A stretch of 64,000 bases of DNA, taken from contig NZ_WVEM01000003.1 of NCBI RefSeq assembly GCF_009847015.1, positions 186,001 through 250,000 on the forward strand, given 5' to 3'. Below, in pieces: positions 13,604-46,264 of this stretch (position 1 is its first letter; every line of letters starts with the position of its first letter). The DNA comes from Sunxiuqinia indica. Lineage in GTDB: Bacteria; Bacteroidota; Bacteroidia; Bacteroidales; Prolixibacteraceae. The position numbers were made by a program, and so were the translations under genes. The notes below the pieces were generated by a model. It had not been told where the DNA came from, did not search any database, and was given only the letters and a program-made list of their open reading frames with translations.

Positions 13604-14605
13604 TTATGATGTCTTATTATCGAATTTAAATGTTTTATACAAGTATCCCATGTATGGAAAGATGATTAAAACCCCAACGATTAAAGCAATTAGCAACTGT
13701 AACTGCACTTGCTTTGGCGCGGCGGCACTTTGCATGGTAATATCAGTGCCGTCGTTAATTTTAACCAACACAGGAAACTGAATAGCAAACCAACCTATCA
13801 CGATCATCGAGGTTTGAAAAGCTGCAATAATCCGAACTCGGGTTCGTCTGTTTTGGTTGAGATATATCCAAAGGAATGGCAAGGCGATCGTGGCCAGGAT
13901 GAAACAGATCATGCTGGGAATTGAATGGTAAAATTCGTAGAAAAGCGGATGTCCTTCAATTTCGGCCGTAGCAAAAACCAAGGCTCCAGAGCCAACCAGA
14001 GCAATCAGCAGGTATTTTCCAATACGCGTGAAACGCTTGATGTGCTCCTCCTCCCTGGTTTCGCCAATGGTGTAAATGTTGGCCAGAAACGCAAACAGGA
14101 TAACCAAAAACACACCCATGCTAAACGAAAACAAATTGAGCCACGGATGCATGTAAATGGTGAAAAAGCCTTTGCTGTAATCTTGCGAAATCTCTCCTAA
14201 AATAATACCTCCGATGGTGACTCCAAGGAAGAAGGTCGTTATTAAACTGGAATACCGAAAGATGGATGAGTAGATGGCTTTCGGTCGTTCTTCCTCAATG
14301 TCGTAATGGCGAAAGGTGAAAGCCGATCCGCGCATAATAATGCCGAGGAGTACCAGCAGAACGGGAATGTGAAGCGCTGTTAACACCGTTGAATAAACCG
14401 TTGGAAATCCGACAAAAAGGATCACAACAACAAGAATTAGCCACACATGGTTGGCTTCCCAAACAGGGGCGATGGCACGCGCTACAATTCCCGAAGCTTT
14501 TCCTCGGGAGATCAATTCAAGAATTCCTCCTCCAAAGTCGGCTCCACCGAGCAGCACATATAATAAAAGGCAAATGCCAAGTATAATGATAATCGTTTCA
14601 GTCAT
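13604..14605 (-). CDS. cydB: Cytochrome bd ubiquinol/menaquinol oxidase subunit II
   Basis: Membrane subunit of the high-affinity terminal oxidase that reduces oxygen with quinol in the inner membrane. The N-terminal LLLYVLLGGADFGGGILEL and the WEANHVWLILVVVILF segment are family signatures; eight to nine hydrophobic segments span 333 residues. Its start codon overlaps the end of cydA by 8 bases, so the two are translationally coupled. No small CydX-like frame was recognised downstream. Oxidases of this type let anaerobic or microaerobic Bacteroidetes tolerate and use trace oxygen. Confidence 0.97.
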   Translation of the reverse strand: MTETIIIILGICLLLYVLLGGADFGGGILELISRGKASGIVARAIAPVWEANHVWLILVVVILFVGFPTVYSTVLTALHIPVLLVLLGIIMRGSAFTFRHYDIEEERPKAIYSSIFRYSSLITTFFLGVTIGGIILGEISQDYSKGFFTIYMHPWLNLFSFSMGVFLVILFAFLANIYTIGETREEEHIKRFTRIGKYLLIALVGSGALVFATAEIEGHPLFYEFYHSIPSMICFILATIALPFLWIYLNQNRRTRVRIIAAFQTSMIVIGWFAIQFPVLVKINDGTDITMQSAAAPKQVQLQLLIALIVGVLIIFPYMGYLYKTFKFDNKTS

Positions 14606-21492: not shown

Positions 21493-24400
21493 CTAATCCG
21501 TTTTTCCATAGCCACCCCCGCCGGGCGTTTCAATCACAAACTGGTCGCCATCCTGTAAATCCATATTCTGGATGGATTGAAGTTGGACGACTTCACCATT
21601 CTTTCGGATGACCTTTTGCTTTCCGGCTTGCCCATTTTGTCCGCCTTTCAAACCATACGGGCCGGAGTTGCGCCGCTGGGTGAGTACCGATAAATTGACC
21701 GGTTCCAAAAAAGTCAATTTACGAATGATGCCATCGCCTCCGTTCCATTTTCCGGCTCCTCCCGAGTTTTGTCGAATGGAAAATTCATCCAGCCGAACCG
21801 GGTAGCGCAGTTCCATGATTTCAGGATCAGTAATGCGGGTATTGGTCATGTGATGATGCACGGCACTTGCTCCGTTGAACCCATTGCCAGCTCCGCAACC
21901 ACCGCAAATCGTTTCGTAGTAGCCAAAGTTTTCATTTCCAAACAGGGTGTTATTCATGGTTCCCTGACTGGCAGCTATCACGCCAAAGGCTTTTAGTAAG
22001 GTGTCGGTCAGGCGCATGCTGATTTCAACATTGCCACCAACCACGGCCGGGCACTTGGTCGGATCATCATCAAAAACAGGATTTAACAAACCGTTGGACA
22101 GATGAATAGAAACTGGTTGCAATAATCCATCGTTTAATGGGATCGACTCTTTTAAGAGCAGACGCAAAACATAAATGGTTACACTTTGTACAATGGCTTC
22201 GGTAGCATTCATATTGCCGGTGTGAACCTCCGCACTTCCTGTAAAATCGATTTTGCACTCACCATCTTTTAAATCAACTTTTACTTTCAGCAAGGAGCCA
22301 TCATCCAATCTTTCCTCGGCGTCATAAATACCATCCGAAAATTTCGACAAGGTTTCGCGCATTTTATCTGCGGCGTGTTTTTTCAATAAACTGAAGTAAT
22401 TGCTTACTGTTTCTGCCCCATGTTGTTCTATGAGGTTTAGCAGCGCATCTTGTCCGTTTTTATTTGCCGCAATTGCTGCATTCAAATCTGCCAGGTTTTC
22501 TTCAACCGAGCGGGTAGGAAAGGGGCCTTTCAAGAGGATGTCGCGCATGCCGTCCCAATCCACCTGATTTCCTTTTACAAGGTGAAAAGGGGAAATAACC
22601 ACGCCTTCTTCGGCCAGATTTTTGGCGTTCGGTGGCATGGAGCCCGGACTGATTCCGCCAATCTCGCTATGATGCGCCCGGTTCACGACAAAGGCAACTC
22701 GTTTCCTCTCATGAAAAACAGCAGTCACCAAGGTTACGTCAGGAAGATGAGAACCACCGTACTTGGGATGATTGGTCACAATGGTGTCGCCTTCTTCAAT
22801 CTGAATATGTTTTAACAAGCTTTTTACACACACGCCCAATCCGCCAAGGTGAACAGGAATGTGAGGCGCATTGGCTACCAGCCCTCCGTCAGCATCTAAA
22901 AGGGCACATGAAAAATCAAGTCGCTCTTTAATGTTAACCGACAAAGCTGTTCGTTGCAACAAGGCGCCCATGTTTTCGGCAATCGACATAAACCGATTCG
23001 CAAACAGTTCCAATTCGGTTTCCTGGGTCTGCTCTTTGATGTCGGCGTTTACTTCAGTTTTCGATAGCACAGCTGTTCCATGCGAATAGAGTTGTAGCTG
23101 CCAGCCTTTTTTTAGATAGGTTGTGGCGTAATTGTCCAGAAAAAGAGCTGGGCCCGTAATTTCTGCTCCGGGGTTCAAGTCGTCGCGCACAAATACGGGA
23201 ATCTGTTCACTTCGAATACGGTAACCTGGCTCGGGGATATAAGATTCGGCTTGTGCGGTTGGGGGGGCTTCTTCTTTCGACTTTACTGAAGCGATGGTGC
23301 GAATGGCCTCCAACTCAATGGGGCGGTTTTTAACCTGATGTCCGTATAGTTTTTTGTATTGTTTGTGAAACTTCCTGATGGCATCTTCTTCTTTTTTGTA
23401 TTGAATTTCCAGGCTGCTGTCTTGTCCTTGGAAACGAAGAAATAGCATGCGTTGCCGGATTTCAATCTGATCGGATTGGAAGCCTTCGTCTTCTAATAGT
23501 CTCACGGCATTGTTTTCAATCTCTTCAAATTGATTGGCTAATGAAGACTCTGCTTCATCCCAATACGCCAGGATTTGTTTTTCGGCAAAGCGTTCGATAC
23601 GTGCGTGTCCAATTCCATATGCACTCAGCAATCCGGCATCTTGTGGAAGAAGAACGGTTTTGATTGTCAGCATGTCGGCAATGTCACAAGCGTGAAGTCC
23701 TCCGGCACCTCCAAACGCAACTAAGGAAAAGTCCTTCGGATTATAGCCTTGCGAAATTGATATTTTCCGAATCGCTCCGGCCATAATCTCATTGGCAATG
23801 TCAATAAATCCATCCAATATTTTTTGTGCCGACTGCTTTTTGCCCGATTTTTCTTCTACCTGAAGGATTAATTCATTCAACCGCTCCTGAGCCGCTTCAG
23901 GAAAAACAGGGATAGAAAACCGGGAGGTGTCCAACCTGCCGAGTAACAAGTTGACATCAGTTATTGTTAGCGGACCACCTGCACCATAGCAAGCCGGGCC
24001 GGGAAAAGCGCTGGCACTCTCCGGACCAACAAAAAGTTTATAGCCGTCGAACCCACAAATTGATCCACCTCCTGCAGCTACGGTTTCAATAGCGATCGCT
24101 GAACTGTTGATAATCGAATCGCCCACTTCCAGCTCATAGCGATAATCAAAAGCACCGCTGTAGCGCGAAACATCGGTGCTGGTGCCGCCCATATCGAAGG
24201 TAATCAGGTTTTGCCGCCCACAATTTTTTCCGATTAGCGATGCGCCAACAACTCCTCCGGCGGGGCCGCTCAATAAACTGTCTTTGGGTTGAAAATTGTC
24301 GGCTGCCACCAAGCTTCCGGCACTGGTCATTATCTGGAAAGCGTGTTTGCCGACTCGTTCAACGATGTTATTCACGTAGTTATGAATGATGGGAGAGAGG

Positions 24401-25257
24401 TAGGCATTGACAACAGTCGTTTCAGCCCGCGGGACGATTTTTACAAGCGGTGTTAATTCGGCTGACGCAGAGATCGATTGAAAACCAAGTTCTTCGAGAA
24501 TCTTTTTTGTTTCTTCTTCGTGAATTGGGTTCTTATACGCATTCACGAATGCAATGGCAACAGATTCAAATTTTTGATTTCGGAGCTCCTGCAATTGTTG
24601 CCGAAGCTTGTCTTTATCCAGTGCCAGCAAAATGTTTCCTTGTGCATCAATTCGTTCATCAACCTCTAAAACTGAGTTTGCGATTTGCTGTCGTTTTTCA
24701 ACGTTCATTGCAAAAATGTCGGGACGCGCCTGGTTGCCAATCTTTAGCAGGTCTTTAAATCCTTTGGTGACCAGAATAAGTGTTTTTGCACCCTTTCTCT
24801 CTAGTAATGCATTTGTTCCTTTAGTTGAGCCTAATTTGAGTTGTAAGTTTGGAAAAGTTTCAGTCAATGCTGTTTGTGTAATCAGTCGTGCTCCCAAAAC
24901 CGGCGCTTCTTCATGCGAGGTGATTTCAAAATTGGCTCCTTCTTTCAAATTTTCAGAGGAGAATGGCTGGTTGATTTCCATCCGTTTTTGTTGGATGTCA
25001 AAGGAGACAATCTTAAAATTTGTATACTCTTCGCCCAATAAACGAAAAGAAAAACCTTGAATAATATCGCGTTCCAACTCCCAAGCTTCGTGAATAATTA
25101 ATGAAGTGGCTGATTCTATTTTTTTGATGCTTCCCCGAAGGCTGCTGTTGCTTAAAACTTTGCGTCGGTATTCGGTTCCATTCTGATCAATACCAATACA
25201 ATCGGTAAATGTTCCGCCTGTGTCAACAAACAGCTGAAAATGTCTTTTATTTTCCAT
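21493..25257 (-). CDS. 5-oxoprolinase, fused HyuA-HyuB type
   Basis: ATP-dependent cleavage of 5-oxo-L-proline to glutamate is the reaction of full-length members; hydantoinases and acetone carboxylases are relatives. Residues 1-690 are the HyuA-type ATPase part: the phosphate loop FVDTGGTFTDCIG at 9-21, GSTKGTNALLERKGA, the second nucleotide motif TFDMGGTSTDVSR and AFGGAGGLHACDIA. Residues about 710-1254 are the HyuB-type part, with AENMGALLQRTALSVNIKER and DEFSIRQNSGGAGKWNGGDG. The length of 1254 residues equals the eukaryotic-style fused enzyme, while many bacteria have two genes. Cytosolic. It stands alone and is divergent from the ATP-grasp/transglutaminase operon. Confidence 0.93.
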   Translation of the reverse strand: MENKRHFQLFVDTGGTFTDCIGIDQNGTEYRRKVLSNSSLRGSIKKIESATSLIIHEAWELERDIIQGFSFRLLGEEYTNFKIVSFDIQQKRMEINQPFSSENLKEGANFEITSHEEAPVLGARLITQTALTETFPNLQLKLGSTKGTNALLERKGAKTLILVTKGFKDLLKIGNQARPDIFAMNVEKRQQIANSVLEVDERIDAQGNILLALDKDKLRQQLQELRNQKFESVAIAFVNAYKNPIHEEETKKILEELGFQSISASAELTPLVKIVPRAETTVVNAYLSPIIHNYVNNIVERVGKHAFQIMTSAGSLVAADNFQPKDSLLSGPAGGVVGASLIGKNCGRQNLITFDMGGTSTDVSRYSGAFDYRYELEVGDSIINSSAIAIETVAAGGGSICGFDGYKLFVGPESASAFPGPACYGAGGPLTITDVNLLLGRLDTSRFSIPVFPEAAQERLNELILQVEEKSGKKQSAQKILDGFIDIANEIMAGAIRKISISQGYNPKDFSLVAFGGAGGLHACDIADMLTIKTVLLPQDAGLLSAYGIGHARIERFAEKQILAYWDEAESSLANQFEEIENNAVRLLEDEGFQSDQIEIRQRMLFLRFQGQDSSLEIQYKKEEDAIRKFHKQYKKLYGHQVKNRPIELEAIRTIASVKSKEEAPPTAQAESYIPEPGYRIRSEQIPVFVRDDLNPGAEITGPALFLDNYATTYLKKGWQLQLYSHGTAVLSKTEVNADIKEQTQETELELFANRFMSIAENMGALLQRTALSVNIKERLDFSCALLDADGGLVANAPHIPVHLGGLGVCVKSLLKHIQIEEGDTIVTNHPKYGGSHLPDVTLVTAVFHERKRVAFVVNRAHHSEIGGISPGSMPPNAKNLAEEGVVISPFHLVKGNQVDWDGMRDILLKGPFPTRSVEENLADLNAAIAANKNGQDALLNLIEQHGAETVSNYFSLLKKHAADKMRETLSKFSDGIYDAEERLDDGSLLKVKVDLKDGECKIDFTGSAEVHTGNMNATEAIVQSVTIYVLRLLLKESIPLNDGLLQPVSIHLSNGLLNPVFDDDPTKCPAVVGGNVEISMRLTDTLLKAFGVIAASQGTMNNTLFGNENFGYYETICGGCGAGNGFNGASAVHHHMTNTRITDPEIMELRYPVRLDEFSIRQNSGGAGKWNGGDGIIRKLTFLEPVNLSVLTQRRNSGPYGLKGGQNGQAGKQKVIRKNGEVVQLQSIQNMDLQDGDQFVIETPGGGGYGKTD

Positions 25258-25619: not shown

Positions 25620-27059
25620 ATGCCAAAAATAGATTTTCAAAGTTACGAGACTGAAGGTTTTTTTGATGAAACTTTCGAAAACGATAAAATAGTAAAGCCG
25701 CATTATGCCCTGTTTATTGATTGGCTGCAAAAAATGGGGTTGAAAAAACTCAATATGCTGCAGCATTCTACGGACAGAGTGCAATTGTCTATGGGGATGA
25801 CTTTTAATGTTTACAGTGATAATCAAGGGGTTGAGCGCATTCTTCATTTAGATATTATCCCTAGGATTATTAGTGGTCAGGATTGGGATTTGCTTGAGCG
25901 TGGGTTGAAGCAACGGATTTACGCGATGAATTTATTCATCGATGACATTTATAATGATCAGAAAATATTAAAAGATAAAATTATTCCGAAAGAACTGATT
26001 TTATCGAGTTCGTCATACTTGAAACAGTGTGTTGGACTGAAACCGCCCAAAGGTGTATGGGTTCACATTACCGGAACCGATATTATCCGGGGTGCTGATG
26101 GCAGTTACTATGTGCTTGAAGACAACCTGCGATGTCCGTCAGGAGTTTCGTATATGCTGGAAAATCGGGAAATTCTGAAGCGAACTTTCCCCGAAGTCTT
26201 TGAGAAACTAAATGTTCGGCCGGTTTATAATTATAGCCACTACCTGCGCGATATGCTCGAGTCGCTTTCTCCGGTATTTCCCGCCTCAATCGCGGTGTTG
26301 ACTCCGGGGACTTATAATTCAGCCTATTTCGAACATGCTTATCTTGCTCAGCAAATGGGCGCCGAGCTGGTTGAGGGGCGTGACCTTGTCGTTCAAGATG
26401 ACTTCGTATATAAAATTACGACCAAAGGACTGAAGCGGATTGATGTGATTTACCGAAGGGTAGATGACGATTTTATCGATCCGGAGGTTTTTAGAGCTGA
26501 TTCGATGCTGGGAACACCGGGACTATTTAGAGCTTACCTTAAAGGTAATGTAGTATTGATAAATGCACCCGGCACAGGAGTGGCTGACGACAAAGCTGTT
26601 TATGCTTATGTTCCCGACATCATCAAATACTACTTGGGCGAAGAGATGTTGCTTCCCAATATCGAAACGTTCCTTTGTGATCGTGAAAAGGAACGAGATT
26701 ATGTCATCGACAATATTTCGAAATTGGTTATCAAACAGACGGATGCTTCTGGTGGATATGGCATGTTAATTGGCCCAAAATCAACCAAGGAAGAGCAAGC
26801 CGAATTTATTCAGAAAATCAAAAAAAGTCCCAGAAATTATATTGCACAACCGACCATAAATTTGTCGAGGGTACCTACATTATCCGATCAGGGGATTGAA
26901 GGTCGTCATGTCGACTTAAGGCCTTATGTGCTCTATGGAAGCGACATTAATATTATTCCAGGTGCTTTGACCCGGGTTGCGTTGAAAAAGGGATCTCTTG
27001 TAGTAAACTCCTCTCAGGGGGGTGGAAGTAAGGACACTTGGGTTGTTGACAATTTTTAA
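25620..27059 (+). CDS. Circularly permuted ATP-grasp protein (type 2, DUF404/407)
   Basis: Cytosolic 479-residue member of the circularly permuted ATP-grasp type 2 family. ATP-grasp enzymes activate a carboxylate as acyl phosphate and join it to an amine or thiol. Typical segments are MGMTFNVYSD at about 60, HLDIIPRIIS, DIIRGADGSYYVLEDNLRCPSGVSYMLENR, VLTPGTYNSAYFEHAYLAQQMGAELVEGRDL, VDVIYRRVDDDFIDP, QTDASGGYGM and the C-terminal VNSSQGGGSKDTWV. The family has been predicted to form amide bonds in peptide-like products. It is the first gene of a five-gene operon; the next gene starts 11 bases on. The substrate is not known. A TTG-free ATG start at 25620 agrees with the candidate promoter. Confidence 0.92.
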   Translation: MPKIDFQSYETEGFFDETFENDKIVKPHYALFIDWLQKMGLKKLNMLQHSTDRVQLSMGMTFNVYSDNQGVERILHLDIIPRIISGQDWDLLERGLKQRIYAMNLFIDDIYNDQKILKDKIIPKELILSSSSYLKQCVGLKPPKGVWVHITGTDIIRGADGSYYVLEDNLRCPSGVSYMLENREILKRTFPEVFEKLNVRPVYNYSHYLRDMLESLSPVFPASIAVLTPGTYNSAYFEHAYLAQQMGAELVEGRDLVVQDDFVYKITTKGLKRIDVIYRRVDDDFIDPEVFRADSMLGTPGLFRAYLKGNVVLINAPGTGVADDKAVYAYVPDIIKYYLGEEMLLPNIETFLCDREKERDYVIDNISKLVIKQTDASGGYGMLIGPKSTKEEQAEFIQKIKKSPRNYIAQPTINLSRVPTLSDQGIEGRHVDLRPYVLYGSDINIIPGALTRVALKKGSLVVNSSQGGGSKDTWVVDNF

Positions 27060-27070
27060 AACCAAAGAAC

Positions 27071-28033
27071 ATGCTTAGTAGAGTAGCAGATGCGATGTAC
27101 TGGATGAACCGGTACATGGAAAGGGCTGAAAATTATGCCCGTTTTATGGATGTTAGTTTTAATCTTTCGCTGGAATTGCCCCCTCATGTGTCAGAACAAT
27201 GGCAGCCTTTGGTTGTAACTACCGGAGATTGGGAATTGTACAGTGAAAAGCACGAAAGCATTAACAAGGAAAATGTAATCTACTTTTTAGGATTTGATCC
27301 TAAAAATCCGAATTCGATTTATAATTGCATCGTCAATGCCAGGGAGAATGCCCGGGCTATCCGCCCTGAGATAACGAAGGAACTTTGGGCACAAATTAAC
27401 TACTTGTACTATTTTGTTAAGAATGGTCTTGAAAAGAAAATTTGGGTAAAAAAAGATCCGAGGATATATTTTGACGAAATAAAAAAAGGATGTCAGCTGT
27501 TTTGGGGAATTGTCGATGCAACCATCTCAAGAACAGAGGGCTGGCATTTTGGTCGTATTGGGAAAATGCTGGAGCGGGCAGATAAAACGTCACGAATATT
27601 GGATGTAAAATACCATATTTTATTGCCGACAGCACAGGATATTGGGGGCTCTATAGACATTATTCAGTGGGCAGCACTTTTAAAATCAGTTAGTGCTTAC
27701 GACATGTATCGAAAGCTTTACGGAAAGCTGACTTCTGTAGGTATCGCCAAGTTTTTGATTCTTGATAATGAATTTCCACGATCCATGTTATTATGTCTCG
27801 AACATACCGCAATTTCTTTAAGAATGATTTCAGGCAACACCAATGGTTACTCCAATCAGGCTGAAAAGGAAGTTGGAATGCTGACTTCTCAGTTAGTGTT
27901 TGCCGACATTAATGATATTATTAGTTCAGGCATGCATGAATACCTGGACAAGTTCCAAATTGATTTACTTAAGGTTGCGGAGGCAATCTCAGATTCCTTC
28001 TTTTCAGTCGAAAAGAATATTGCAAAAGCGTAA
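27071..28033 (+). CDS. Alpha-E domain protein (DUF403)
   Basis: A helical protein whose start MLSRVADAMYWMNRYMERAEN is the hallmark of the alpha-E family; PRSMLLCLEH near residue 240 is also typical. No enzyme motif or signal peptide is present. Alpha-E proteins nearly always accompany the permuted ATP-grasp proteins and often are fused to them, as happens later in this same operon, so they are likely a structural or substrate-carrying partner. The length of 320 residues is normal. It lies 11 bases after the ATP-grasp gene and 21 before the transglutaminase gene. Confidence 0.92.
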   Translation: MLSRVADAMYWMNRYMERAENYARFMDVSFNLSLELPPHVSEQWQPLVVTTGDWELYSEKHESINKENVIYFLGFDPKNPNSIYNCIVNARENARAIRPEITKELWAQINYLYYFVKNGLEKKIWVKKDPRIYFDEIKKGCQLFWGIVDATISRTEGWHFGRIGKMLERADKTSRILDVKYHILLPTAQDIGGSIDIIQWAALLKSVSAYDMYRKLYGKLTSVGIAKFLILDNEFPRSMLLCLEHTAISLRMISGNTNGYSNQAEKEVGMLTSQLVFADINDIISSGMHEYLDKFQIDLLKVAEAISDSFFSVEKNIAKA

Positions 28034-28054
28034 TTAATAATTTATAATCCGCAC

Positions 28055-31000
28055 ATGGCTCTTAAAGTTGTCATTTCCCATAAAACGACGTACAAGTATG
28101 ATCGAATGGTAAACCTGTCCCCTCATATCTTTCGTTTGCGTCCTGCCCCTCATAGTCGAACACCTATTGAGGCTTATTCAATCAAAATAAAGCCGGAGAA
28201 CCATTTTTTTAATTGGCAACAAGATCCTTTTGGCAACTACCAGGCAAGGCTTGTTTTTCCTGAAAAGACCAAGGAATTATCAGTTGATGTTGAAATTATT
28301 GCCGATCTGAAGACCATCAATCCGTTTGATTTTTTTGTGGAGGAATCTGCGGAGAAGTTTCCATTTACTTACAGTGAAATCACGAAGAAAGAGTTAATCC
28401 CCTATTTAGAAATTAATGAAAGCGGAGCTTTATTGAATGAGTGGTTGAAAACCGTTGATCGCTCCGAGCGAAAAACAATTGATTTTTTAATCGAATTGAA
28501 TCAGAAGCTCAATCAGCACCTGAATTATACGATTCGAATGGAGCCTGGTGTTCAGACTTGCGAAGATACCTTGCAACGAAAAACCGGATCCTGCCGCGAT
28601 TTTGCGTGGGTATTGGTTCAGGCACTTCGTCATTTTGGAATCGGAGCCCGTTTTGTTTCAGGCTATTTGGTGCAATTAACCGCCGACGAAAAATCACTGG
28701 ACGGTCCTTCGGGCCCTGAATCGGATTTTACCGATCTGCATGCTTGGGCTGAAGCCTATATTCCCGGAGCCGGCTGGATCGGATTCGACGCCACTTCTGG
28801 CTTATTGGCTGGCGAAGGTCACATTCCACTGGCGTGTACTCCTTCCTTCGAAAGTGCCGCCCCAGTATCTGGATTGACCGATGTTTGCGAAACCGAATTC
28901 TTTCACAGCAATACGGTTACTCGTATTTTCGAGTCGCCCCGGGTTACAAAACCTTATACCGATGATCAATGGCAATCGATTTACAATCTGGGTTTTGAAG
29001 TTGAAAAAGAATTGGAGGACGGCGATGTTCGCTTGACGATGGGTGGTGAACCGACTTTTGTTTCTATAGACGATATGGAGTCGAAAGAATGGAACACCGC
29101 AGCCGATGGGGAGCATAAACGTAAACTGGCATCCAATTTATCGACTCGCTTGCTGGAGCGGTTTGGAAAAGGAGGTCTCTTGCATCATGCTCAGGGGAAG
29201 TGGTATCCCGGCGAACCTCTTCCACGTTGGCTGGTTGGTATTCATTGGCGAAAAGATGGTGAACCGGTTTGGAAAAATCCGGATCTTTTAGCTTCGTTCA
29301 CAAAGGAATATAAGGTGGATGATTCTGCCCCGGAGCTTTTTCTGAAAACTTTAACGAAATATTTGGGCATTGGCACTGAAACCATTCTTCCGGCCTACGA
29401 AGATATTTTCTATTTCTTGTGGGAAGAAGGCCGTTTACCGGTTGATGCAGATCCTCTTAAAAGTAATTTGAAAGATCCGTTGGAACGTCAGAAATTAAGC
29501 GAGTTGTTGAATAAGGGATTGAATGCACCCGCAGGTTATGTTATGCCGCTTAATAGCTATCAAAAACGATGGGTTAGCAGTCAGTGGGAATTTCGCCAAA
29601 AACATTTGTATCTCACCCCCGGAAATTCGCCGGTTGGCTTGCGACTTCCATTAGAGTCGTTGCTCGAAAGCCCGACAAAAGAAAGCGACCCTATTTTTGA
29701 ACCTGATTTATATGCTGAAACCGAACCACTTGGAGAATATCAAGAAGTGGTTCAGAAACGAAAAAAGGCTGGAGTCCAGGCTCAATCTGAACCAATGCCT
29801 TTTATCCGAACGGCTATTTGTGCCGAAGTACGCGAAAACAGGCTATACCTGTTTTTGCCGCCGCTCGAAAGTGCCGAAGAATTTCTTGATTTGGCAGCTG
29901 CCTTGGAAGCTTCTGCCGAAGAGCTTAAGATTCCGATTATTATTGAGGGGTATGAACCGCCTCGCGACAATCGCATGGAAGTGCTGAAAGTAACTCCTGA
30001 TCCCGGTGTAATTGAAGTTAATATTCATCCGGCAAAAAACTGGAAAGAGTTGACCGATAATACACTGGCTTTATATGAAGAAGCAAAACAAGCACGATTG
30101 GGTACAGAGAAATTTATGCTCGACGGTAAACACACCGGAACCGGAGGAGGTAATCACGTTACGCTGGGTGGAGCAAAACCAACCGACAGTCCTCTGTTGC
30201 GGCGACCCGATTTATTACGCAGTCTGCTTACATTCTGGCAACATCATCCCGGACTTTCTTATCTGTTCTCCGGATCTTTTATCGGGCCGACAAGCCAGGC
30301 TCCAAGGGTTGACGAAGGACGCTACGAGAATCTTTACGAACTGGAAATTGCTTTTGAGCAAGTTCCTGAAGGTGAAGAAGTACCTTATTGGCTAACCGAC
30401 AGATTGTTTCGCCATATGCTGACCGACATTACCGGCAATACGCACCGGGCTGAATTTTGCATCGATAAATTGTATTCCCCCGATTCCTCATCGGGTCGCT
30501 TGGGTATATTGGAACTTCGGGCTTTTGATATGCCGCCACATGCACAAATGAGTTTGACGCAAATGTTACTGGTTCGTACGCTGGTTGCGTGGTTCTGGCG
30601 TAAACCGTACAAACACAAATTAGTACGTTGGGGTACTGAGTTACATGATCGATTCCTCATGGAGCATTACGTGAAAGAAGATATAAAAGACATTGTGGAA
30701 CAGCTGAACGAGGCGGGTTATCCGTTTCAGTTAGATTGGTTTGATCCATTCTTTGAATTCCGTTTCCCCTTGTATGGCATGGTCAATATTAAAGGAATTG
30801 ATATTGATTTACGCATGGCCATTGAACCGTGGAATGTTTTGGGTGAAGAAATGTCGGATCGGGGAACTGCTCGCTATGTCGACTCGTCGGTTGAACGTAT
30901 TCAGGTGAAGCTGAATAATTTTGTAGACAACCGTTATATTCTAACTTGCAATGGAGTGAAAGTTCCGCTAATTGCAACTGGAAAGAAGGGCGAATTTGTC

Positions 31001-31396
31001 TCCGGAGTTCGGTACAAAGCTTGGCAGCCATGGTCATCGCTTCATCCAACAATTGGTGTTGATACACCGCTGGTATTTGACATTGTAGATACCTGGAACA
31101 AAAGGTCAATTGGTGGATGTACCTATTTTGTCGCACATCCGGGAGGTCTCTCGTACGATACCTATCCGGTGAACAGTTATGAAGCGGAATCGCGCAGAAT
31201 TAACCGTTTTTGGGATCTAGGGCACACACAGGGCGAAATTGCTGCACCCGAGAGCCAGGCGGTTGACCAAATGCCTGATCGGTCGATTCAGGTACATTCT
31301 GATGTGAAAAAGTTTGATTATAGAGAAATTCCCGTAAGTTTGGAGTTCCCTCATACATTGGATTTGCGACACAATAGAAAAAATAAAAAGAGCTGA
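28055..31396 (+). CDS. Transglutaminase-like protease fused to DUF2126 (predicted amidoligase)
   Basis: A 1113-residue cytosolic protein. Residues 1-85 are the bacterial transglutaminase-like N-terminal beta domain. Residues about 130-265 are the papain-fold transglutaminase core with a complete triad: C180 in KTGSCRDFAW, H229 in DLHAWAEAY and D245 in GFDATSG. From about 320 to 1080 runs DUF2126 (MGGEPTFVSIDDME, HAQGKWYPGEPLPRW, DGKHTGTGGGNHVTLGG, HRAEFCIDKLYSPDSSSGRLGILELRAFDMPPH), which has been predicted to be an amidoligase with a glutamine-synthetase-like fold. One protein could thus both cut or transfer and form amide bonds. Its TGA overlaps the ATG of the next gene by one base (TGATG), implying coupled translation. 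Confidence 0.92.
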   Translation: MALKVVISHKTTYKYDRMVNLSPHIFRLRPAPHSRTPIEAYSIKIKPENHFFNWQQDPFGNYQARLVFPEKTKELSVDVEIIADLKTINPFDFFVEESAEKFPFTYSEITKKELIPYLEINESGALLNEWLKTVDRSERKTIDFLIELNQKLNQHLNYTIRMEPGVQTCEDTLQRKTGSCRDFAWVLVQALRHFGIGARFVSGYLVQLTADEKSLDGPSGPESDFTDLHAWAEAYIPGAGWIGFDATSGLLAGEGHIPLACTPSFESAAPVSGLTDVCETEFFHSNTVTRIFESPRVTKPYTDDQWQSIYNLGFEVEKELEDGDVRLTMGGEPTFVSIDDMESKEWNTAADGEHKRKLASNLSTRLLERFGKGGLLHHAQGKWYPGEPLPRWLVGIHWRKDGEPVWKNPDLLASFTKEYKVDDSAPELFLKTLTKYLGIGTETILPAYEDIFYFLWEEGRLPVDADPLKSNLKDPLERQKLSELLNKGLNAPAGYVMPLNSYQKRWVSSQWEFRQKHLYLTPGNSPVGLRLPLESLLESPTKESDPIFEPDLYAETEPLGEYQEVVQKRKKAGVQAQSEPMPFIRTAICAEVRENRLYLFLPPLESAEEFLDLAAALEASAEELKIPIIIEGYEPPRDNRMEVLKVTPDPGVIEVNIHPAKNWKELTDNTLALYEEAKQARLGTEKFMLDGKHTGTGGGNHVTLGGAKPTDSPLLRRPDLLRSLLTFWQHHPGLSYLFSGSFIGPTSQAPRVDEGRYENLYELEIAFEQVPEGEEVPYWLTDRLFRHMLTDITGNTHRAEFCIDKLYSPDSSSGRLGILELRAFDMPPHAQMSLTQMLLVRTLVAWFWRKPYKHKLVRWGTELHDRFLMEHYVKEDIKDIVEQLNEAGYPFQLDWFDPFFEFRFPLYGMVNIKGIDIDLRMAIEPWNVLGEEMSDRGTARYVDSSVERIQVKLNNFVDNRYILTCNGVKVPLIATGKKGEFVSGVRYKAWQPWSSLHPTIGVDTPLVFDIVDTWNKRSIGGCTYFVAHPGGLSYDTYPVNSYEAESRRINRFWDLGHTQGEIAAPESQAVDQMPDRSIQVHSDVKKFDYREIPVSLEFPHTLDLRHNRKNKKS

Positions 31397-33939
31397 TGCC
31401 TGAAATTAATGATATACCGTGCAACGAGTACCTGAAGGAATGTGAGAATGATGAAGTGGTAGGTGCAAACAATTCCATTAATCCGCATTGGGACATTCTT
31501 TTTAAAAATGTCCAGAACATTGGCTATGCTGCTTTAGATTCCAGACAGTCGGATTTGAATTGGTATCTCTCAGAGAATGGGGTTACTTACAATGTTTATA
31601 ACGATCCTAATGGGCTTAATCGACCATGGAATCTGAATGCGATTCCATCCATTGTTGAAGCCAGGGAATGGGAAACGATTGAAAAAGGGATTCAGCAGCG
31701 TGCCGAATTATTCAACCTTATTCTGAAGGACTTGTATGGGAAACGCGAACTAATTAAAAAAGGAATTGTTCCGCAGGAAGTCATATACAGTCATCGGGGG
31801 TTTATTCGGCAATGCGATCAGATCGAATATACAACAGCCAAGCAATTGCAGATTTACGCGGCCGACATAGCCAGGGGGCCAGACGGAAGAATGTGGATAT
31901 ACAGCGACCGGACTCAAGCACCATCCGGAATGGGTTATGCACTCGAGAACAGACTAACGATTGGTCGGGTTTTGCCGGAACTTTCAAACGGCATAGAAGT
32001 TAGTCGGTTATCTAGCTTTTTTCAGCATTTTGACAACTTGCTGATTGACGCATCACCACGTAAAATTGATTCACCAACAATCGTGGTACTAACCCCGGGG
32101 CCACTCAACGAAACTTATTTTGAACATGCCTATCTGGCATCGCACATGGGATATCCGTTGGTGCAGGGGAACGATTTAGTGGCACGTGACGGTTATCTGT
32201 GGATGAAATCATTAAAGGGATTAAAGCAGGTCGATGTCGTTTTACGAAGGGTTGATGATTTGTATACAGATCCACTCGAATTGCGCGAAGATTCGCAATT
32301 GGGCGTGCCCGGGCTGTTGGAGGTTGTCAGACAAAAGCATGTTAGCATTTTAAATCCAATTGGATCACGGGTGTTGGAAAATCCCGGATTAATTCCTTTC
32401 ATACCGGGCATTGCAAAATATTTTTTAAATGAAAAGCTAATTCTTCCACAAGTGGCTTCGTGGTGGTGTGGACAGGAAAAGGAGCGAAAATATGTGCTTG
32501 ATCATCTTTCCGAGTTAATCGTTCGGTTGATCGATCGCCCTTTTAATGACAGTGTATTTTATGGCTATGAGATGAACCCGCAGGATTTGCAACTTTTACG
32601 AGCGCAAATTCTTGAACGCCCCTATCGATTTGTCGCACAGGAACGCATTGGTTTTTCAACCACACCAACATTTATAAACCAAAAACTTGAGCCACGTAAT
32701 ATGGCTGTCCGTACCTTTGGGATAGCCACTAAGAATGGCTATGAGATTATGCCGGGAGGCCTGGCTCGAGTAGCTCCGGGCATCGGAAATTCGATTGTTA
32801 CCAATCAAACCGGAGGATTGAGTAAAGATTTCTGGGTGGTAGGAAAAGAACCGGATGATCACAAAGCTCGTTTTTCGTTGGCAAGACCAACAAACACGAT
32901 TGAGGCAAGTTTGGATGATTTACCTAGTTTAACTGCGGAGAATCTTTTTTGGGCAGGACGGTACGTTGGACGTGCGCTGTCAACATCGCGTTTTTTGCGC
33001 ATGGTTCTTAAGCAAATGAGTTTCACCAATTTTAACGAGCGAAAACCCACCGAAAAAAGCTTAGATGTTTTGTTTCGGGCGGTAACTAATATGACCTGTA
33101 CTTTCCCCGGTTTTGTTGGCGATGAACCCATTGAAAATCCGGTGAAGGAAATCTATTCGGTAATTTTGGATGCTGATCGTGATGGCAGTTTGGCACACAC
33201 GATGAACATGTTTTTTAATGCCTATTTCTCAATTCGAAATTTATGGTCTTCGGATATGTGGCGGGTGTTTGGCCGGATTAATACAATTTGGAGCGAAATT
33301 GAGAGTGAAGGAAATGTGACCACACGTCGGTTAATACAAGTGTTAGATCAGTTAATTACACGGCTAATCGCTTTTATGGGTTTGGTGGAGGAAAGCATCT
33401 TGATTGATCAGGGATTGTTACTCTATTTTGTTGGTTTGCAGCTTGAACTTAGCAACTTGAATATTTCGAAGTGCCGAAGTTTGTTGGTCGTAAAATATGA
33501 TGGACAGGTTGAATATGAAATTTTGGAATCGTTGCTAAACAGCCACGAAAGTTTGACGATTTACCGCCATAGTTATCGCTCTTACATTAAGATCGAGAAT
33601 GTGATTGACCTGATTTTACTCGATCAAAAATACCCACGTTCGGTTGCGTATCGTTTCAATCGTTTGAATAAGGATTTAGCAGTTTTGCCACAATCGAGTG
33701 CATCACATGAATTAACCAACTACGAGAAGTCTATTTTTAGTGGATTTTCAAAACTAAGACTTGCAACACGAGATGAGTTGAGTCGCGCGGAAGAGGAAAC
33801 TTCGATACGAGAAAATCTTGACCAGTTGCTTTCAGAATTGAGTGATTTGCTTTTTAAAGCCTCCATGTCAATAACGACAACCTATTTTAGTCATAGCTAT
33901 CAGCAGAACCAGTTAGTCAATCAAAGTTTCGACGAATAA
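31396..33939 (+). CDS. Fused circularly permuted ATP-grasp and alpha-E protein
   Basis: Residues about 60-480 are a second permuted ATP-grasp type 2 domain (NGVTYNVYND, DIARGPDGRMWIYSDRTQAPSGMGYALENRL, VLTPGPLNETYFEHAYLASHMG, VVLRRVDDLYTDP, TNQTGGLSKDFWV). Residues about 505-820 are a second alpha-E domain (SLTAENLFWAGRYVGRALSTSRFL, DQKYPRSVAYRFNRL). The protein is therefore the two first genes of the operon in fused form, but clearly diverged from them. Notably its ATP-grasp half has SDRTQAPSGMGYALENR where the first copy has EDNLRCPSGVSYMLENR, so the two enzymes may differ in substrate. It overlaps the upstream gene by one base and ends two bases before the next. Confidence 0.92.
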   Translation: MPEINDIPCNEYLKECENDEVVGANNSINPHWDILFKNVQNIGYAALDSRQSDLNWYLSENGVTYNVYNDPNGLNRPWNLNAIPSIVEAREWETIEKGIQQRAELFNLILKDLYGKRELIKKGIVPQEVIYSHRGFIRQCDQIEYTTAKQLQIYAADIARGPDGRMWIYSDRTQAPSGMGYALENRLTIGRVLPELSNGIEVSRLSSFFQHFDNLLIDASPRKIDSPTIVVLTPGPLNETYFEHAYLASHMGYPLVQGNDLVARDGYLWMKSLKGLKQVDVVLRRVDDLYTDPLELREDSQLGVPGLLEVVRQKHVSILNPIGSRVLENPGLIPFIPGIAKYFLNEKLILPQVASWWCGQEKERKYVLDHLSELIVRLIDRPFNDSVFYGYEMNPQDLQLLRAQILERPYRFVAQERIGFSTTPTFINQKLEPRNMAVRTFGIATKNGYEIMPGGLARVAPGIGNSIVTNQTGGLSKDFWVVGKEPDDHKARFSLARPTNTIEASLDDLPSLTAENLFWAGRYVGRALSTSRFLRMVLKQMSFTNFNERKPTEKSLDVLFRAVTNMTCTFPGFVGDEPIENPVKEIYSVILDADRDGSLAHTMNMFFNAYFSIRNLWSSDMWRVFGRINTIWSEIESEGNVTTRRLIQVLDQLITRLIAFMGLVEESILIDQGLLLYFVGLQLELSNLNISKCRSLLVVKYDGQVEYEILESLLNSHESLTIYRHSYRSYIKIENVIDLILLDQKYPRSVAYRFNRLNKDLAVLPQSSASHELTNYEKSIFSGFSKLRLATRDELSRAEEETSIRENLDQLLSELSDLLFKASMSITTTYFSHSYQQNQLVNQSFDE

Positions 33940-33941
33940 GT

Positions 33942-34859
33942 ATGATTTTCCAGGTAATTCATAAAACAACTTATAAATATGACAACTTTGTCAGCTATTG
34001 TCATAATATGGCTACACTTAGACCGCGCGATCTAAGCGGTCAGAAATTATTGGATTTTAAGCTGGACATTGAACCTTCTCCTTCTGAAATTAACGAGCGG
34101 ACTGATTTCTTTGGAAATTATTTAACTCGATTTTCTATTCAGGAGCCGCACAATGAGTTGATTGTTAGTTCGAAAAGTATTATTGAGCGAGATTTTAACT
34201 CTATAGTTGCGAGCTACAATTCGAGTAACTGTCGGATGGTTACAATGAGTAGTGCCATTGATCAATTAAAAACACAGCTCACTGCCGACTGTTTGAATGC
34301 CCGTCAGTATCTATTGGAATCGCCACTTATTCGTAAAGTTTCACCTGTCATAAAAAATTATGGCACCGAATCTTTTCAACCCAATCGGTCGGTTTTTGAT
34401 GCAGCAAAGGAGTTGATGCAACGAATCTTCACCGACTTTAAATTTGTGCCTGGGTTCTCTGATGTGGCGACTCCGCTGCATGAGGTTTTTGAGGAACGAA
34501 AAGGGGTTTGTCAGGATTTCGCCCAAATTGCAATCGCATGCATTCGATTAGTCGGATTACCCGCTCGCTACATGAGTGGATATATTGAGACTATTCCGCC
34601 TGCCGGACAGGAAAAACTGATTGGTGCCGATGCTTCGCATGCTTGGTTTTCAATTTTTATACCAGGTTTTGGATGGGTCGATTTTGACCCGACAAATAAT
34701 TTGATTCCAGAAAATCAACATCTGGTTGTTGCTTGGGGGCGCGATTATTACGATGTTCCACCGCTCAAAGGAGTGATTTACAGTAATGGCAAAAATGAAA
34801 TGAATGTTTCTGTAGACATTCGCGAAATAGAGTATGACACTCAACCTCAAACGAAATAA
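33942..34859 (+). CDS. Transglutaminase-like cysteine peptidase family protein
   Basis: A 305-residue cytosolic protein with the transglutaminase-like N-terminal beta domain (FQVIHKTTYKYDNFVSYCHN at the start) and a core with C190 in ERKGVCQDFA, H233 in DASHAWFSIF and D249 in VDFDPTNN, so the catalytic triad is complete. It resembles the N-terminal part of the 1113-residue protein in the same operon but lacks DUF2126. Family members can act as peptidases or acyl transferases; in this setting cleavage or transfer of the product made by the ATP-grasp enzymes is an attractive inference. Last gene of the operon, followed by a strong terminator. Confidence 0.92.
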   Translation: MIFQVIHKTTYKYDNFVSYCHNMATLRPRDLSGQKLLDFKLDIEPSPSEINERTDFFGNYLTRFSIQEPHNELIVSSKSIIERDFNSIVASYNSSNCRMVTMSSAIDQLKTQLTADCLNARQYLLESPLIRKVSPVIKNYGTESFQPNRSVFDAAKELMQRIFTDFKFVPGFSDVATPLHEVFEERKGVCQDFAQIAIACIRLVGLPARYMSGYIETIPPAGQEKLIGADASHAWFSIFIPGFGWVDFDPTNNLIPENQHLVVAWGRDYYDVPPLKGVIYSNGKNEMNVSVDIREIEYDTQPQTK

Positions 34860-34860
34860 T

Positions 34861-34892
34861 AAAAAAGCCTTTCAGTAACGAAAGGCTTTTTT
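34861..34892. terminator. Bidirectional terminator between the transglutaminase operon and speA
   Basis: Perfect 13-bp arms AAAAAAGCCTTTC (34861-34873) and GAAAGGCTTTTTT (34880-34892) around AGTAAC. T tracts result on both strands, serving the convergent operon and speA. Confidence 0.92.
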
Positions 34893-34911
34893 ATTATTCT
34901 ACTCGAAATTT

Positions 34912-42838: not shown

Positions 42839-42893
42839 AGGTGGGAAAGCCGCGAACTTCCCCACCTGTAGTGAATAATTTTTGCAAATTATT
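42839..42893 (+). promoter_or_regulatory. Two consecutive hairpins in the susC leader
   Basis: Hairpin 1: AGGTGGGAAAG (42839-42849) with CTTCCCCACCT (42857-42867), 10 of 11 pairs, loop of 7. Hairpin 2: AATAATTT (42874-42881) with AAATTATT (42886-42893), perfect 8 bp, loop TTGC. Both lie between the FecR stop and the ATG of the SusC gene at 42913. They may attenuate, stabilise or cap the susCD transcript. Confidence 0.55.
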
Positions 42894-42912
42894 AATCTTA
42901 CAATTCAAACTT

Positions 42913-45900
42913 ATGAAAAAAAATGGATTGAAGGAAGCTGGTATAAGTGTTTTCTTCTTTAAACTACTAATTGTTATGAAGCTAAGTATCTTTATTTTAT
43001 GCTTAACGATCTTTACAGCGGTCGCTTCAGGAACCTATTCTCAAACGACAAAACTGTCGGTGGTTGCAAAAAACAAAACGATTGAAGATGTTTTAAAAAC
43101 AATTGAGGATCAAAGTCAGTATCGTTTCTTTTATTCTGGTGTTATTAATACCACCAAAAAGGTTTCGATTAATAGTCAGGACAAAAATCTGGAAACAATT
43201 CTTCAACAAGTGCTGGATCAAACAGAAATTGGATATCGAATTGTAGGCCGGCAAGTTGCTCTTTTCAATACCAACGAAAAAGAGAATTCCAACATGCTTC
43301 AACAGGAATTAAATGTTGAAGGTACTGTTACCGGAGTTGGAGGAGAAGCTCTTCCGGGTGTAACGGTAGTTATTAAAGGAACTACAAATGGAACAATTAC
43401 CGATTTCGATGGTAGGTACATGTTGTCTGCAGTTCCTTCTGATGCAGTGTTGGTTTTCTCCTTTGTAGGGATGAAAAGTCAAGAAGTACCGGTAGCCGGT
43501 AAAAGTAAATTAAATGTTATTTTAGAGGATGAAACTATTGGTCTTGAAGAAGTTGTTGCCATTGGATATGGTACGGTAAGAAGAGAAGATGTTACGGGCT
43601 CTATTTCTTCTATTAATGCTAAAGATTTTAATCTAGGAATAACAGTTGCGCCAGAGCAACTCATGCAAGGTAAGGTTGCAGGGGTAAATATTATCCAAAA
43701 TAGTGGACAATCAGGGGCAGCTTCCACTGTTCGTGTTCGAGGATCAAGTTCTGTATCCGCAGGAAATGATCCTTTGTATGTAGTTGATGGAGTGCCATTG
43801 CAATTCAGCTCGGCTAATAAGTATGTTAATGTTGCCGGTGAATCAAGTACTTCACCATTCTCATCTGAAGGTACTAACCCGTTGAATGCAATCAATCCTT
43901 CTGATATTGAATCAATTGAAATATTGAAAGATGCATCTGCAACAGCGATCTATGGATCAAGGGGGGCAAATGGAGTTATCATCATTACAACTAAAAGTAA
44001 AAATTTGGGAGAATCAGTTTCTTACGATACTTATGTTGGAGTATCCTCAGTGCGTAAAAGTTTAGAAGTACTGTCAGCAGATGAATACCGTAACTATGCG
44101 CAAAGTAATAACCTTGCATTTCCTGATGAAGGAGCAAATACTGATTGGCAGGATGCTATTTACAGAACAGCACTCAGTCAGAATCATAATTTGTCGTTTG
44201 GTGGAGGTTCAGCTTCCAGTAATTACCGTGCATCTTTTGGGTATAATGCTCAAGATGGTATCATTGAGTCGTCGGGAATTGAAAAATACACGGCGCGTTT
44301 AAATGCCAATCAAACAGGAATGGATGGAAAATTAAAGATTGGAATCAATTTGACTTATGGTAAGATTTTAGATGATATTGCACCTGTTTCTTCCAATGTG
44401 GGGAATGAAGGTGGTAATATGTTAAAAGATGCGATTCGTTGGGCTCCTACGCTTCCTGTTTATAACGAAGATGGTAGCTTTTATCAAATTGGTGAGTTAC
44501 GGGTTAATCCGGTTTCGTGGGGAGAACAGATTGAAGATGAGCGAAATACAAGCCTATTCTTAGGGAATGCCAATATTGAATACAATATCCTCGACGAACT
44601 TAAAGTGAGTGTTAACGTTGGGCACAATGATGAGGCAGTGAATCGTTATACTGCTGTTCCTGCATCCCATCCGATTGGACAGGCTGAAAATGGTCGTGCC
44701 TCAATTAGTAAAATACAAAACTCAAGTTCGTTGATTGAAACAAACCTAACGTATAACGAAGAATTTGAAAACAGCAGTTCATTAACAGTTCTGGCAGGAT
44801 ATTCTTTTCAACGATTTGTGACCGAAAATACGTTTACCGCTGCCAACCAGTTTGTTGCATCTTCAGTTAAATGGAATTTGATGCAATCAGGAAGCCTGGT
44901 TTCTAATACTTCATACAAGTCTGCTAATCGTTTAGCCTCAATGTATGCCCGCGCAAATTATAAACTACTGGATCGTTACATATTTACTGCGACATTACGT
45001 CGAGATGGTTCCAGTCGCTTTGGGGGCAACAACCAGTATGGACTTTTCCCGTCAGGTGCATTTGCCTGGAAATTGTCTGATGAGCCATTTTTCAACAGCT
45101 CAAAAATCAGTAATATGAAAGTTCGCGTGGGTTATGGTGTGACTGGTAATCAGGAAATTCCGAATGATCTGTTTCGTGAGCAGTTATCCATTTCAGGTTC
45201 TAATGTTTACGTTTTAGGTGGAACCGCTATTCCAAGTGTGCTACCAAGTAACTACCCAAATCCGGATTTGAAGTGGGAAACAACCAGCCAAACCAATATT
45301 GGAATCGACTTTGGATTGTGGGATCAGCGCTTAGCTGGTACGTTAGACTTTTATAAGAAACATACTACTGATCTACTATTGGAGTTCTCAACTGCATCTC
45401 CATCCGTGGTTACTAGTCAGTGGGCCAATGTTGGTGAAGTTGACAATACCGGTTTCGAATTGTCGCTGGATGGTAAGATTATACGCAAAAATGAATTCCA
45501 ATGGAATGCGAATTTCAACTTCTCTACCAATAAAAATGAAGTTATTACGCTCTCGAATGAGAATTTTTCGAGAGATGAAATCCTAACGAATGCAACTTCA
45601 GGAGTTGTTAGTAACGGAAGTTCAACACAAATTATAAAACCCGGGTATGAGTTGGGTACTTTTTATGGGCGGCAATTTACCGGTTTGGACGCTGACGGCA
45701 TGGAAACTTATCTTGATGAAGATGGAGTGGATGGAGCTGACATGGTCGTTTTGGGATCTGCTAATCCTGATTTCACATTTGGATTTAGCAATAGCTTTTT
45801 CTGGAAGAACTTCGATATGTCTATTTCTTTCAGGGGTGTTTCCGGAAATAAAATATATAACAACACAGCAGCTGAGTTTTCATACGTAAATGCTGCTCCT

Positions 45901-46230: not shown

Positions 46231-46264
46231 ACAGAAGGGTGAATAACTATTAAAATTTAAGATT

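Follow-up and report, generated by a model that had tools for sequence, protein, structure and literature searches.

A five-gene operon of Sunxiuqinia indica, located in the window (the whole stretch of 64,000 nucleotides that was analyzed), is best explained as an ATP-driven system for amide bonds in the cytoplasm, of a kind that Iyer et al. predicted in 2009, in which one of two ATP-grasp proteins, the product of gene 4, would be a pseudo-ligase (rough probability 0.55). The predicted amidoligase system reportedly combines a permuted ATP-grasp, an Alpha-E protein, a transglutaminase-like protein, a permuted glutamine synthetase (GS)-like ligase and Anbu, a small protein resembling the proteasome. 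Domain content and motifs support the membership of the operon in this amide-bond-making or tagging system, as an earlier note had proposed from the DNA letters alone. Gene content, motif state, co-occurrence and mixed kinship are direct observations: genes 1 and 2 group with Anbu operons, and genes 4 and 5 with a separate DUF2126 module.

Operon layout and domain content

The five open reading frames on the plus strand were confirmed as genes, with exact coordinates, strand and order. Gene 1 (25620–27059; its family is termed CP1) encodes a circularly permuted ATP-grasp ligase (PF14403, CP_ATPgrasp_2; 550 bits), and gene 2 (27071–28033) a stand-alone Alpha-E helical protein (PF04168, 324 bits). 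In gene 3 (28055–31396), an N-terminal transglutaminase-fold domain (Bact_transglu_N and Transglut_core, 28055–28879) precedes a DUF2126 domain (28880–31369; PF09899, 1301 bits), a putative GS-like amidoligase. Gene 4 (31396–33939; CP2) fuses a second CP_ATPgrasp_2 domain (31645–32775, 484 bits) to an Alpha-E domain (32920–33888, 174 bits), and gene 5 (33942–34859) encodes a stand-alone transglutaminase-fold protein with Bact_transglu_N and Transglut_core. All Pfam scores are far above chance, and they bear out the domain list of the earlier note (two CP_ATPgrasp_2, two Alpha-E, one DUF2126).

The tight packing described previously is also confirmed. The intergenic gaps are 11, 21, −1 and 2 bases, with a TGATG overlap at the junction of genes 3 and 4. 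Directly 3' of gene 5, RNA folding reveals a plus-strand hairpin with a U tract (34857–34896; −20.4 kcal/mol, z −8.14, equaled by 0 of 200 shuffles), which probably acts as a terminator and separates gene 5 from the convergent speA; the hairpin is absent from the list of a consensus terminator scan. Spacing and hairpin support the reading of the five genes as one transcription unit. GC3 lies between 0.36 and 0.42 along the operon, with no sign of a recent join.

Ligase and transglutaminase domains

Judged by its residues, gene 1 looks like a catalytic ATP-grasp. Its ATP-grasp motifs are present (E167-D-N169, K372, GGYG378–381, D432 and N463). In the CP1 alignment, which includes the window copy, E167, N169 and K372 are found in all 40 rows and D432 and N463 in 39 of 40; the motif patterns recur in 25/25 further CP1 proteins from Bacteroidota. 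We take E167 and N169 to be metal ligands because their motif resembles that of glutathione and glutathionylspermidine synthetases. No significant match to glutathionylspermidine synthetases emerged from a profile comparison, and the roles of the catalytic residues thus remain motif-based. PDB 3n6x aligns to residues 15–476 of gene 1, nearly its full length (545 bits), while gene 2 has no solved-structure relative by sequence at E 0.1. In quick trees with SH-aLRT support only, gene 1 groups with CP1 of Bacteroidota Anbu operons and gene 2 with Alpha-E proteins of Anbu operons. We do not claim that gene 1 is foreign, since a single clade of all Bacteroidota CP1 survives a topology test that took in 12 of the 25 extra Bacteroidota rows (p-AU 0.123).

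The Pfam label of DUF2126, 'Putative amidoligase enzyme', makes this domain a third ligase candidate in the operon. Its motif residues are invariant in 48 aligned rows, and it is, putatively, the second ligase candidate beside gene 1. A Foldseek search with the gene 3 model (pLDDT 74.8) retrieved 3isr (E 7e-14). Among the 50 rows listed, 12 are glutamine or gamma-glutamylmethylamide synthetases, weak matches (E 0.013–0.056) in a table that gives no indication of which part of the model they cover; the remaining rows read as transglutaminase-fold or cysteine-protease entries. Both transglutaminase triads, noted earlier as intact, are invariant in aligned relatives (C180/H229/D245 of gene 3 in 48/48 rows; C190/H233/D249 of gene 5 in 50/50). 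Gene 3 is 73% and 71% identical to its counterparts in loci L056 and L046, respectively, a kinship read from identity rather than from a tree. Gene 5 groups, in a quick transglutaminase tree that carries a long-branch warning, with proteins encoded 3' of CP2 genes in Flavobacteriaceae.

Co-occurrence with Anbu and the nature of the product

The earlier note had observed that no Anbu adjoins the operon. This holds beyond the neighborhood too: in the genome as a whole (99.7% complete), a PF00227 search and an 11-row Anbu profile both gave 0 matches. Among the best 80 of at least 588 DUF2126 stretches, the gene set is present across many bacterial phyla, and the same five-gene order occurs in 10 loci, all from non-Bacteroidota phyla. 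A rough test found ample flanks in 62 of these 80, so that absence from a locus partly reflects contig ends.

In whole genomes, CP1 and CP2 were separated by open-frame length, with no residue check (CP1 about 460–580 aa, CP2 813–998 aa; two longer frames, in G406 and G478, were assigned to CP1 by score). On this basis, every genome with CP2 also has CP1 (33/33 among 38, 17/17 among 219, plus the genome of the window; 50 distinct genomes, as one is common to two count sets). CP2 occurs without DUF2126 in two genomes (G335 and G428). All DUF2126 genomes have a CP_ATPgrasp match (38/38 in each of two sets), and 75 of 76 DUF2126 genomes hold Anbu, CP2 or both, G371 being the one with neither. Seventeen hold both, and thus the two can coexist. 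The Fisher tests on co-occurrence ignore kinship; of the five CP2-less genomes in the first set, three represent one family and two are Lewinella. In a Bacteroidota sample, 91 of 118 genomes with Alpha-E lack both Anbu and DUF2126, so that the core can do without either. Synechococcus elongatus has matches to the CP_ATPgrasp, proteasome, DUF2126 and Alpha-E families.

One possible role of the system, to which we give clearly less than even odds, is a cycle of tagging and untagging, where proteins receive an amino acid or a short peptide from the ligases, and the tag or the tagged protein is then removed by the transglutaminase-fold enzymes or by Anbu. The near-constant presence of Anbu or CP2 in DUF2126 genomes favors it, while the 91 Bacteroidota genomes with neither Anbu nor DUF2126 argue against it. 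We know of no tag gene or target for such a system. The published tagging prediction of Iyer et al. speaks for this reading and is restated in PMC6376114 and PMC5666114, but the former also reports that Anbu did not act as a peptidase on any substrate tried. For the Anbu-operon proteins of Yersinia bercovieri, the same paper describes no detected mutual interaction and a release of phosphate from ATP by the ATP-grasp.

Similarly tentative is a small-molecule pathway, in which DUF2126 (resembling GS or gamma-glutamylmethylamide synthetase, GmaS) and the glutathione synthetase-like gene 1 would make a glutathione-like or gamma-glutamyl-amine conjugate for nitrogen storage or scavenging, to be cleaved by transglutaminase-fold amidases. 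The GS-type fold matches of gene 3 are in line with this, as are the fold relatives of gene 4 found by Foldseek, among them glutathione synthetases, YgiC and Cp1B, an amide ligase from a fungus (PMC12568646). The genomic context provides less: oxoprolinase-like and speA-like neighbors recur in 0/80 loci (best 80 of at least 588), and a link to the gamma-glutamyl cycle or polyamines from neighboring genes was therefore dropped. Sites agreeing at 10/12 or better with what we presume to be the sigma-54 consensus precede 15/105 system units versus 10/433 controls (p 5e-6, units not independent), but the contrast is small at 11/12 (4/105 versus 6/433). The best site upstream of the operon in the window reaches only 6/12; sigma-54 control is therefore not claimed for this operon nor, given also the small contrast at 11/12, nitrogen control for its lineage. 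In Proteobacteria, the system does appear to be under nitrogen control, according to passages of PMC8050072 and PMC5491218. In Pseudomonas putida, PP_2685 ('bacterial proteasome, beta subunit', taken as Anbu) and PP_2688 (a CP ATP-grasp) are higher on nitrate than on ammonium (PMC8050072), and I35_5080-83 of Burkholderia cenocepacia are lower in an ntrC mutant (PMC5491218). Against this, a passage of the review PMC5666114 states that, in published data, expression of the Anbu operon was unchanged under various other conditions.

Gene 4 as a probable pseudo-ligase, and relation to known systems

The ATP-grasp domain of gene 4 lacks most catalytic motifs: the presumed Glu/Asn/Asp metal ligands and most of the glycine-rich loop are lost. 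Throughout the CP2 alignment (n = 49), N169, D432 and G378 occur in no row, and E167 and N463 in one each. This loss is not general decay, because 72 of 110 CP1-conserved columns retain their residue in 50% or more of the CP2 rows. CP2 forms a single clade in a quick tree (SH-aLRT 100). The AlphaFold2 model of gene 4 (pLDDT 85.4, pTM 0.82) retrieved 3n6x (E 7e-32), with no clear Alpha-E match among the best 50 of 270 Foldseek rows. By sequence, gene 4 thus seems to carry, in its ATP-grasp half, a conserved pseudo-ligase whose active site was lost across the family. Since most presumed metal-ligand and glycine-loop residues are gone, gene 4, with its fused Alpha-E, is probably a binding or regulatory partner rather than a second ATP-grasp catalyst. 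The phrase 'both ligases' in the earlier note thus holds for the first ATP-grasp copy, which looks catalytic, and not for the second; the note had named catalytic-site loss in homologues as grounds for refutation, and such loss is seen for gene 4, while the motifs of gene 1 and DUF2126 are conserved. The make-and-release or tag-and-untag cycle that the note drew from these enzymes is hypothetical.

We consider it improbable that gene 4 is a working ligase whose active site was rebuilt with other residues. K372 (41/49) and D154 (43/49) are mostly kept, so that nucleotide binding stays possible, and together with the Arg that replaces Asn169 in 44/49 rows they indicate a pocket still under constraint. 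Yet the clade as a whole has lost Glu167, Asn169 and Asp432 along with most of the glycine loop, and CP2 is never without CP1 in the 50 genomes. ATP-grasp ligases act on ribosomal precursor peptides in other clusters, but a RiPP-like cluster with its precursor encoded nearby is very improbable here: neither an exporter nor a precursor gene lies within the operon, the gaps (21 bases at most) have no space for a precursor gene, the 362 bases 5' of gene 1 hold only plus-strand frames of 20–33 aa and an 88-aa antisense frame overlapping the gene 1 start, and the directly flanking genes are non-transporters.

For the preferred amide-bond system, we infer the reactions and their order, the acid and amine, the kind of target (protein or metabolite) and the role of gene 4. 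Gene 1, with its Alpha-E partner gene 2, would convert a carboxylate to an acyl phosphate and then, with an amine, to an amide; the putative GS-like domain of gene 3 may form a second ATP-dependent amide bond along one substrate line with gene 1. These bonds would be cleaved or transferred, via a cysteine thioester, by gene 5 and by the transglutaminase-fold domain of gene 3. Gene 4, its fold and many family residues kept but most presumed catalytic residues lost, would serve as a binding or regulatory partner.

In the lineage of S. indica, gene 1 and its Alpha-E partner are followed by the DUF2126-CP2-transglutaminase module; their nearest relatives precede Anbu, which is missing here, and the module may replace it. 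Such a replacement, with both acting on the CP1-Alpha-E product, which the pseudo-ATP-grasp recognizes and hands to cysteine hydrolases (a 'reader' derived from a dead 'writer'), is a doubtful reading, and Anbu is also present in 17 of the 48 genomes that carry DUF2126 together with CP2. Should a single ATP-grasp copy be catalytic, with DUF2126 as the second ligase and with Anbu and the module interchangeable, a CP1 knockout would offer a route to the product and a swap of Anbu for the module a route to its handling step. We found no paper naming what this gene set makes.

The operon shares with the system of Iyer et al. every domain except Anbu, plus the operon context: a permuted ATP-grasp with presumed catalytic motifs (gene 1), Alpha-E (genes 2 and 4), transglutaminase-like domains with intact Cys-His-Asp (genes 3 and 5) and DUF2126, a candidate for the GS-like ligase whose GS-type fold matches are weak. 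It differs in that no Anbu was found in its genome and in an ATP-grasp copy that looks like a pseudo-ligase. In comparison with the Anbu operon (ATP-grasp, Alpha-E, Anbu, transglutaminase), the first two genes cluster with their Bacteroidota counterparts, but the DUF2126-CP2-transglutaminase module follows Alpha-E in place of Anbu. Glutathione and glutathionylspermidine synthetases have the ATP-grasp fold (Foldseek) and an E-x-N motif of like shape in common with it, but show no significant profile match and differ in domains and context. The Methylobacillus flagellatus 'putative glutathionylspermidine synthase' (3n6x), named by likeness only, represents CP1 (545 bits) more than CP2 (284 bits). 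The three-gene CP1-Alpha-E-transglutaminase sets (L140, L143 and L144), without an adjoining Anbu or the DUF2126 module, share the common core with the operon.

Organization and genomic context of the operon

The operon comprises five genes on the + strand (25620–34859), separated, from gene 1 to gene 5, by 11, 21, −1 and 2 bases. Pfam assigns CP_ATPgrasp_2 to gene 1, Alpha-E to gene 2, transglutaminase and DUF2126 to gene 3, CP_ATPgrasp_2 and Alpha-E to gene 4, and transglutaminase to gene 5; at E 0.01, none of these proteins matched an NCBIfam family. Coordinates, strand and domain content from the gene calls and Pfam all match the operon described in the earlier note. Genes 1 (CP1) and 4 (CP2-Alpha-E) are the only CP_ATPgrasp_2 genes in the genome. 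The proteasome-like protein Anbu, said to be missing next to the operon, is indeed not there, and searches with PF00227 and an 11-row Anbu profile did not find it elsewhere in the genome either. A hairpin with a U tract, starting at the gene 5 stop codon (−20.4 kcal/mol, z −8.14), sits between the operon and speA, a convergent gene that NCBIfam assigns to biosynthetic arginine decarboxylase; a consensus terminator scan did not pick up this hairpin.

A divergent gene beside the operon (21493–25257, − strand) encodes a 1254-aa fusion of hydantoinase/oxoprolinase A and B, matched by five NCBIfam models, all far under cut-off. By eye, two membrane proteins at 13604–15908 (− strand) resemble cytochrome bd oxidase subunits, and 42841–47839 encodes a large TonB-linked outer-membrane protein and then a SusD-like lipoprotein, followed by many secreted enzymes; together these look like a polysaccharide utilisation locus.

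Several reports touch on nitrogen control. P. putida PP_2685 and PP_2688 are described as higher on nitrate than on ammonium (PMC8050072), I35_5080-83 as lowered in a B. cenocepacia ntrC mutant (PMC5491218), and Anbu as induced under nitrogen limitation and unchanged in various other conditions (PMC5666114). Marine abundances have been used to tie urea metabolism to these domains (PMC3597751), and a paper on RpoN tables a Bradyrhizobium CP_ATPgrasp gene with a sigma-54-shaped upstream motif (PMC13207237). We scanned upstream of 105 system units and 433 controls with a 12-position sigma-54 consensus. Sites matching at least 10 positions were found at 15/105 units versus 10/433 controls; with the threshold set at 9/12 the counts were 29 versus 42, at 11/12 they were 4 versus 6, and at 12/12 they were 1 versus 1. 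The same scan detected no such site upstream of the window operon.

Anbu and DUF2126 modules across genomes

Among 296 Bacteroidota genomes, including that of S. indica, DUF2126 is present in 12 and Anbu in 21. Alpha-E occurs in 118, among them every one of the 21 with Anbu, and 91 of the 118 lack both Anbu and DUF2126. A first set of 38 DUF2126 genomes combined the 11 others from this sample with 27 hand-picked from 80 fetched loci (the best 80 of at least 588 DUF2126 stretches); with CP1 and CP2 separated by open-frame length, CP1 occurs in 38/38 and CP2-Alpha-E in 33/38. When the window genome is added, Anbu is found in 12/39, namely 5/5 without CP2 and 7/34 with it. The second set, 219 genomes from the class of a Marinomonas locus (L069), contains a CP_ATPgrasp match in 61, Anbu in 53, and CP2 in 17, always alongside CP1 (17/17). 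DUF2126 occurs in 38 of them, each with a CP_ATPgrasp match (in two pieces in genome G355), and here Anbu accompanies 22/23 without CP2 and 10/15 with it. Fisher tests of Anbu against CP2, which ignore relatedness, gave p = 0.0014 (first set plus window) and 0.027 (second set). Over both sets, which share genome G303, 75 of 76 DUF2126 genomes hold Anbu, CP2 or both (the exception is G371), and 17 of the 48 with CP2 also hold Anbu. Thus, the two modules are partly complementary, not exclusive.

An Anbu-like gene lies near the system in 11 of the best 80 loci. Two genomes (G335, G428) carry CP1 and CP2 with no DUF2126 match, unlike the usual set. DUF2126 and CP2 genes also occur in a record titled as a Helicobacter pylori MAG (L051), although the label may be wrong and the DNA that of a different bacterium. 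Six loci (L058, L062, L066, L100, L116, L088) have an extra, shorter transglutaminase-like gene (262–275 aa) nearby, and a protein of 406–436 aa recurs close to the system in four of these best 80 (L059, L079, L088, L108); the one copy tested, from L079, had no Pfam match.

Genes 1, 2, 4 and 5 show mixed kinship in quick trees. Gene 1 clusters with five Bacteroidota CP1 proteins (L020, L022, L023, L024, L044; SH-aLRT 99), whose genomes all have the order CP1-Alpha-E-Anbu-transglutaminase (L126–L130). Gene 2 falls in a set of ten rows (SH-aLRT 97), eight being Alpha-E proteins of Anbu loci and the remaining one, as judged by path distance, that of genome G226. Gene 4 forms a group with CP2 proteins of Flavobacteriaceae (5 rows, SH-aLRT 99), and gene 5 with transglutaminases downstream of CP2 in Flavobacteriaceae and G226 (SH-aLRT 95). 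In G226, where a search found no Anbu, an inverted CP1-Alpha-E-transglutaminase set lies opposite a DUF2126-CP2-transglutaminase module, which looks like a half-way arrangement. Most simply, this mixture would reflect an Anbu operon that lost Anbu and gained the DUF2126 module; the trees are unrooted and do not give direction. The arrangement of the operon is not unique, since the identical five-gene order occurs in 10 of the best 80 loci, including Marinomonas, Marinobacterium, Halioglobus, Desulforhopalus and a planctomycete.

Ligase domains and candidate active sites

The solved protein 3n6x aligns to gene 1 residues 15–476. Proteins of the window and the best 80 loci were aligned, giving 40 rows for CP1 and 49 for CP2, and we counted candidate active-site positions (gene 1 numbering). 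E167, N169 and K372 are present in 40/40 CP1 rows, and D432 and N463 in 39/40 each (L111 lacks D432). In the CP2 rows, N169, D432 and G378 never occur, and E167 and N463 occur once each. Other positions argue against full degeneration of CP2: D154 is retained in 43/49 rows, K372 in 41/49 (Arg in the window gene 4) and G379 in roughly one row in three. Of 110 columns conserved in CP1, 72 persist in half or more of these rows. The CP2 proteins form a single clade (SH-aLRT 100). The gene 4 structure model (pLDDT 85.4) has 3n6x as its best listed Foldseek match, followed by glutathione synthetases from eukaryotes, YgiC of E. coli and Cp1B, a fungal ligase. The motif loss and fold matches together indicate that gene 4 is predicted to retain the ligase fold with most of the active site gone. 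Both permuted ATP-grasp domains proposed earlier are present, with motifs intact in gene 1 and mostly lost in gene 4.

The second ligase of the operon is a candidate role for DUF2126, which Pfam labels a putative amidoligase. For the gene 3 model (pLDDT 74.8), 12 of the 50 Foldseek matches listed are glutamine or gamma-glutamylmethylamide synthetases (E 0.013–0.056, probability 0.77–0.96). The others, as read, are transglutaminase-fold or cysteine-protease entries, fitting the N-terminal domain. The synthetase matches may fall on DUF2126, a weak but consistent assignment, as the table carries no matched range. Twelve gene 3 residues (E332, K382, E387, R391, E654, H693, H701, H797, R798, E800, E820 and R822) are identical in 48/48 rows, and some of them may be metal or substrate ligands of the glutamine synthetase type.

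The operon observation is confirmed and the family was already known. A partial literature search on DUF2126, Alpha-E/DUF403 and Anbu, outside Iyer et al. 2009, found nothing on the product or on an inactive ATP-grasp copy. The additions are a probable conserved pseudo-ligase (gene 4), DUF2126 as a second ligase candidate and the genome-wide lack of Anbu. Partial evidence suggests that the Anbu and DUF2126 modules may be interchangeable on one ligase core.

A profile comparison with glutathionylspermidine synthetases gave no significant matches. The E-x-N of CP1 is presumably a metal site, judging by glutathione and glutathionylspermidine synthetases, and 12 of the latter proteins display a D...E-x-N pattern resembling that of CP1.
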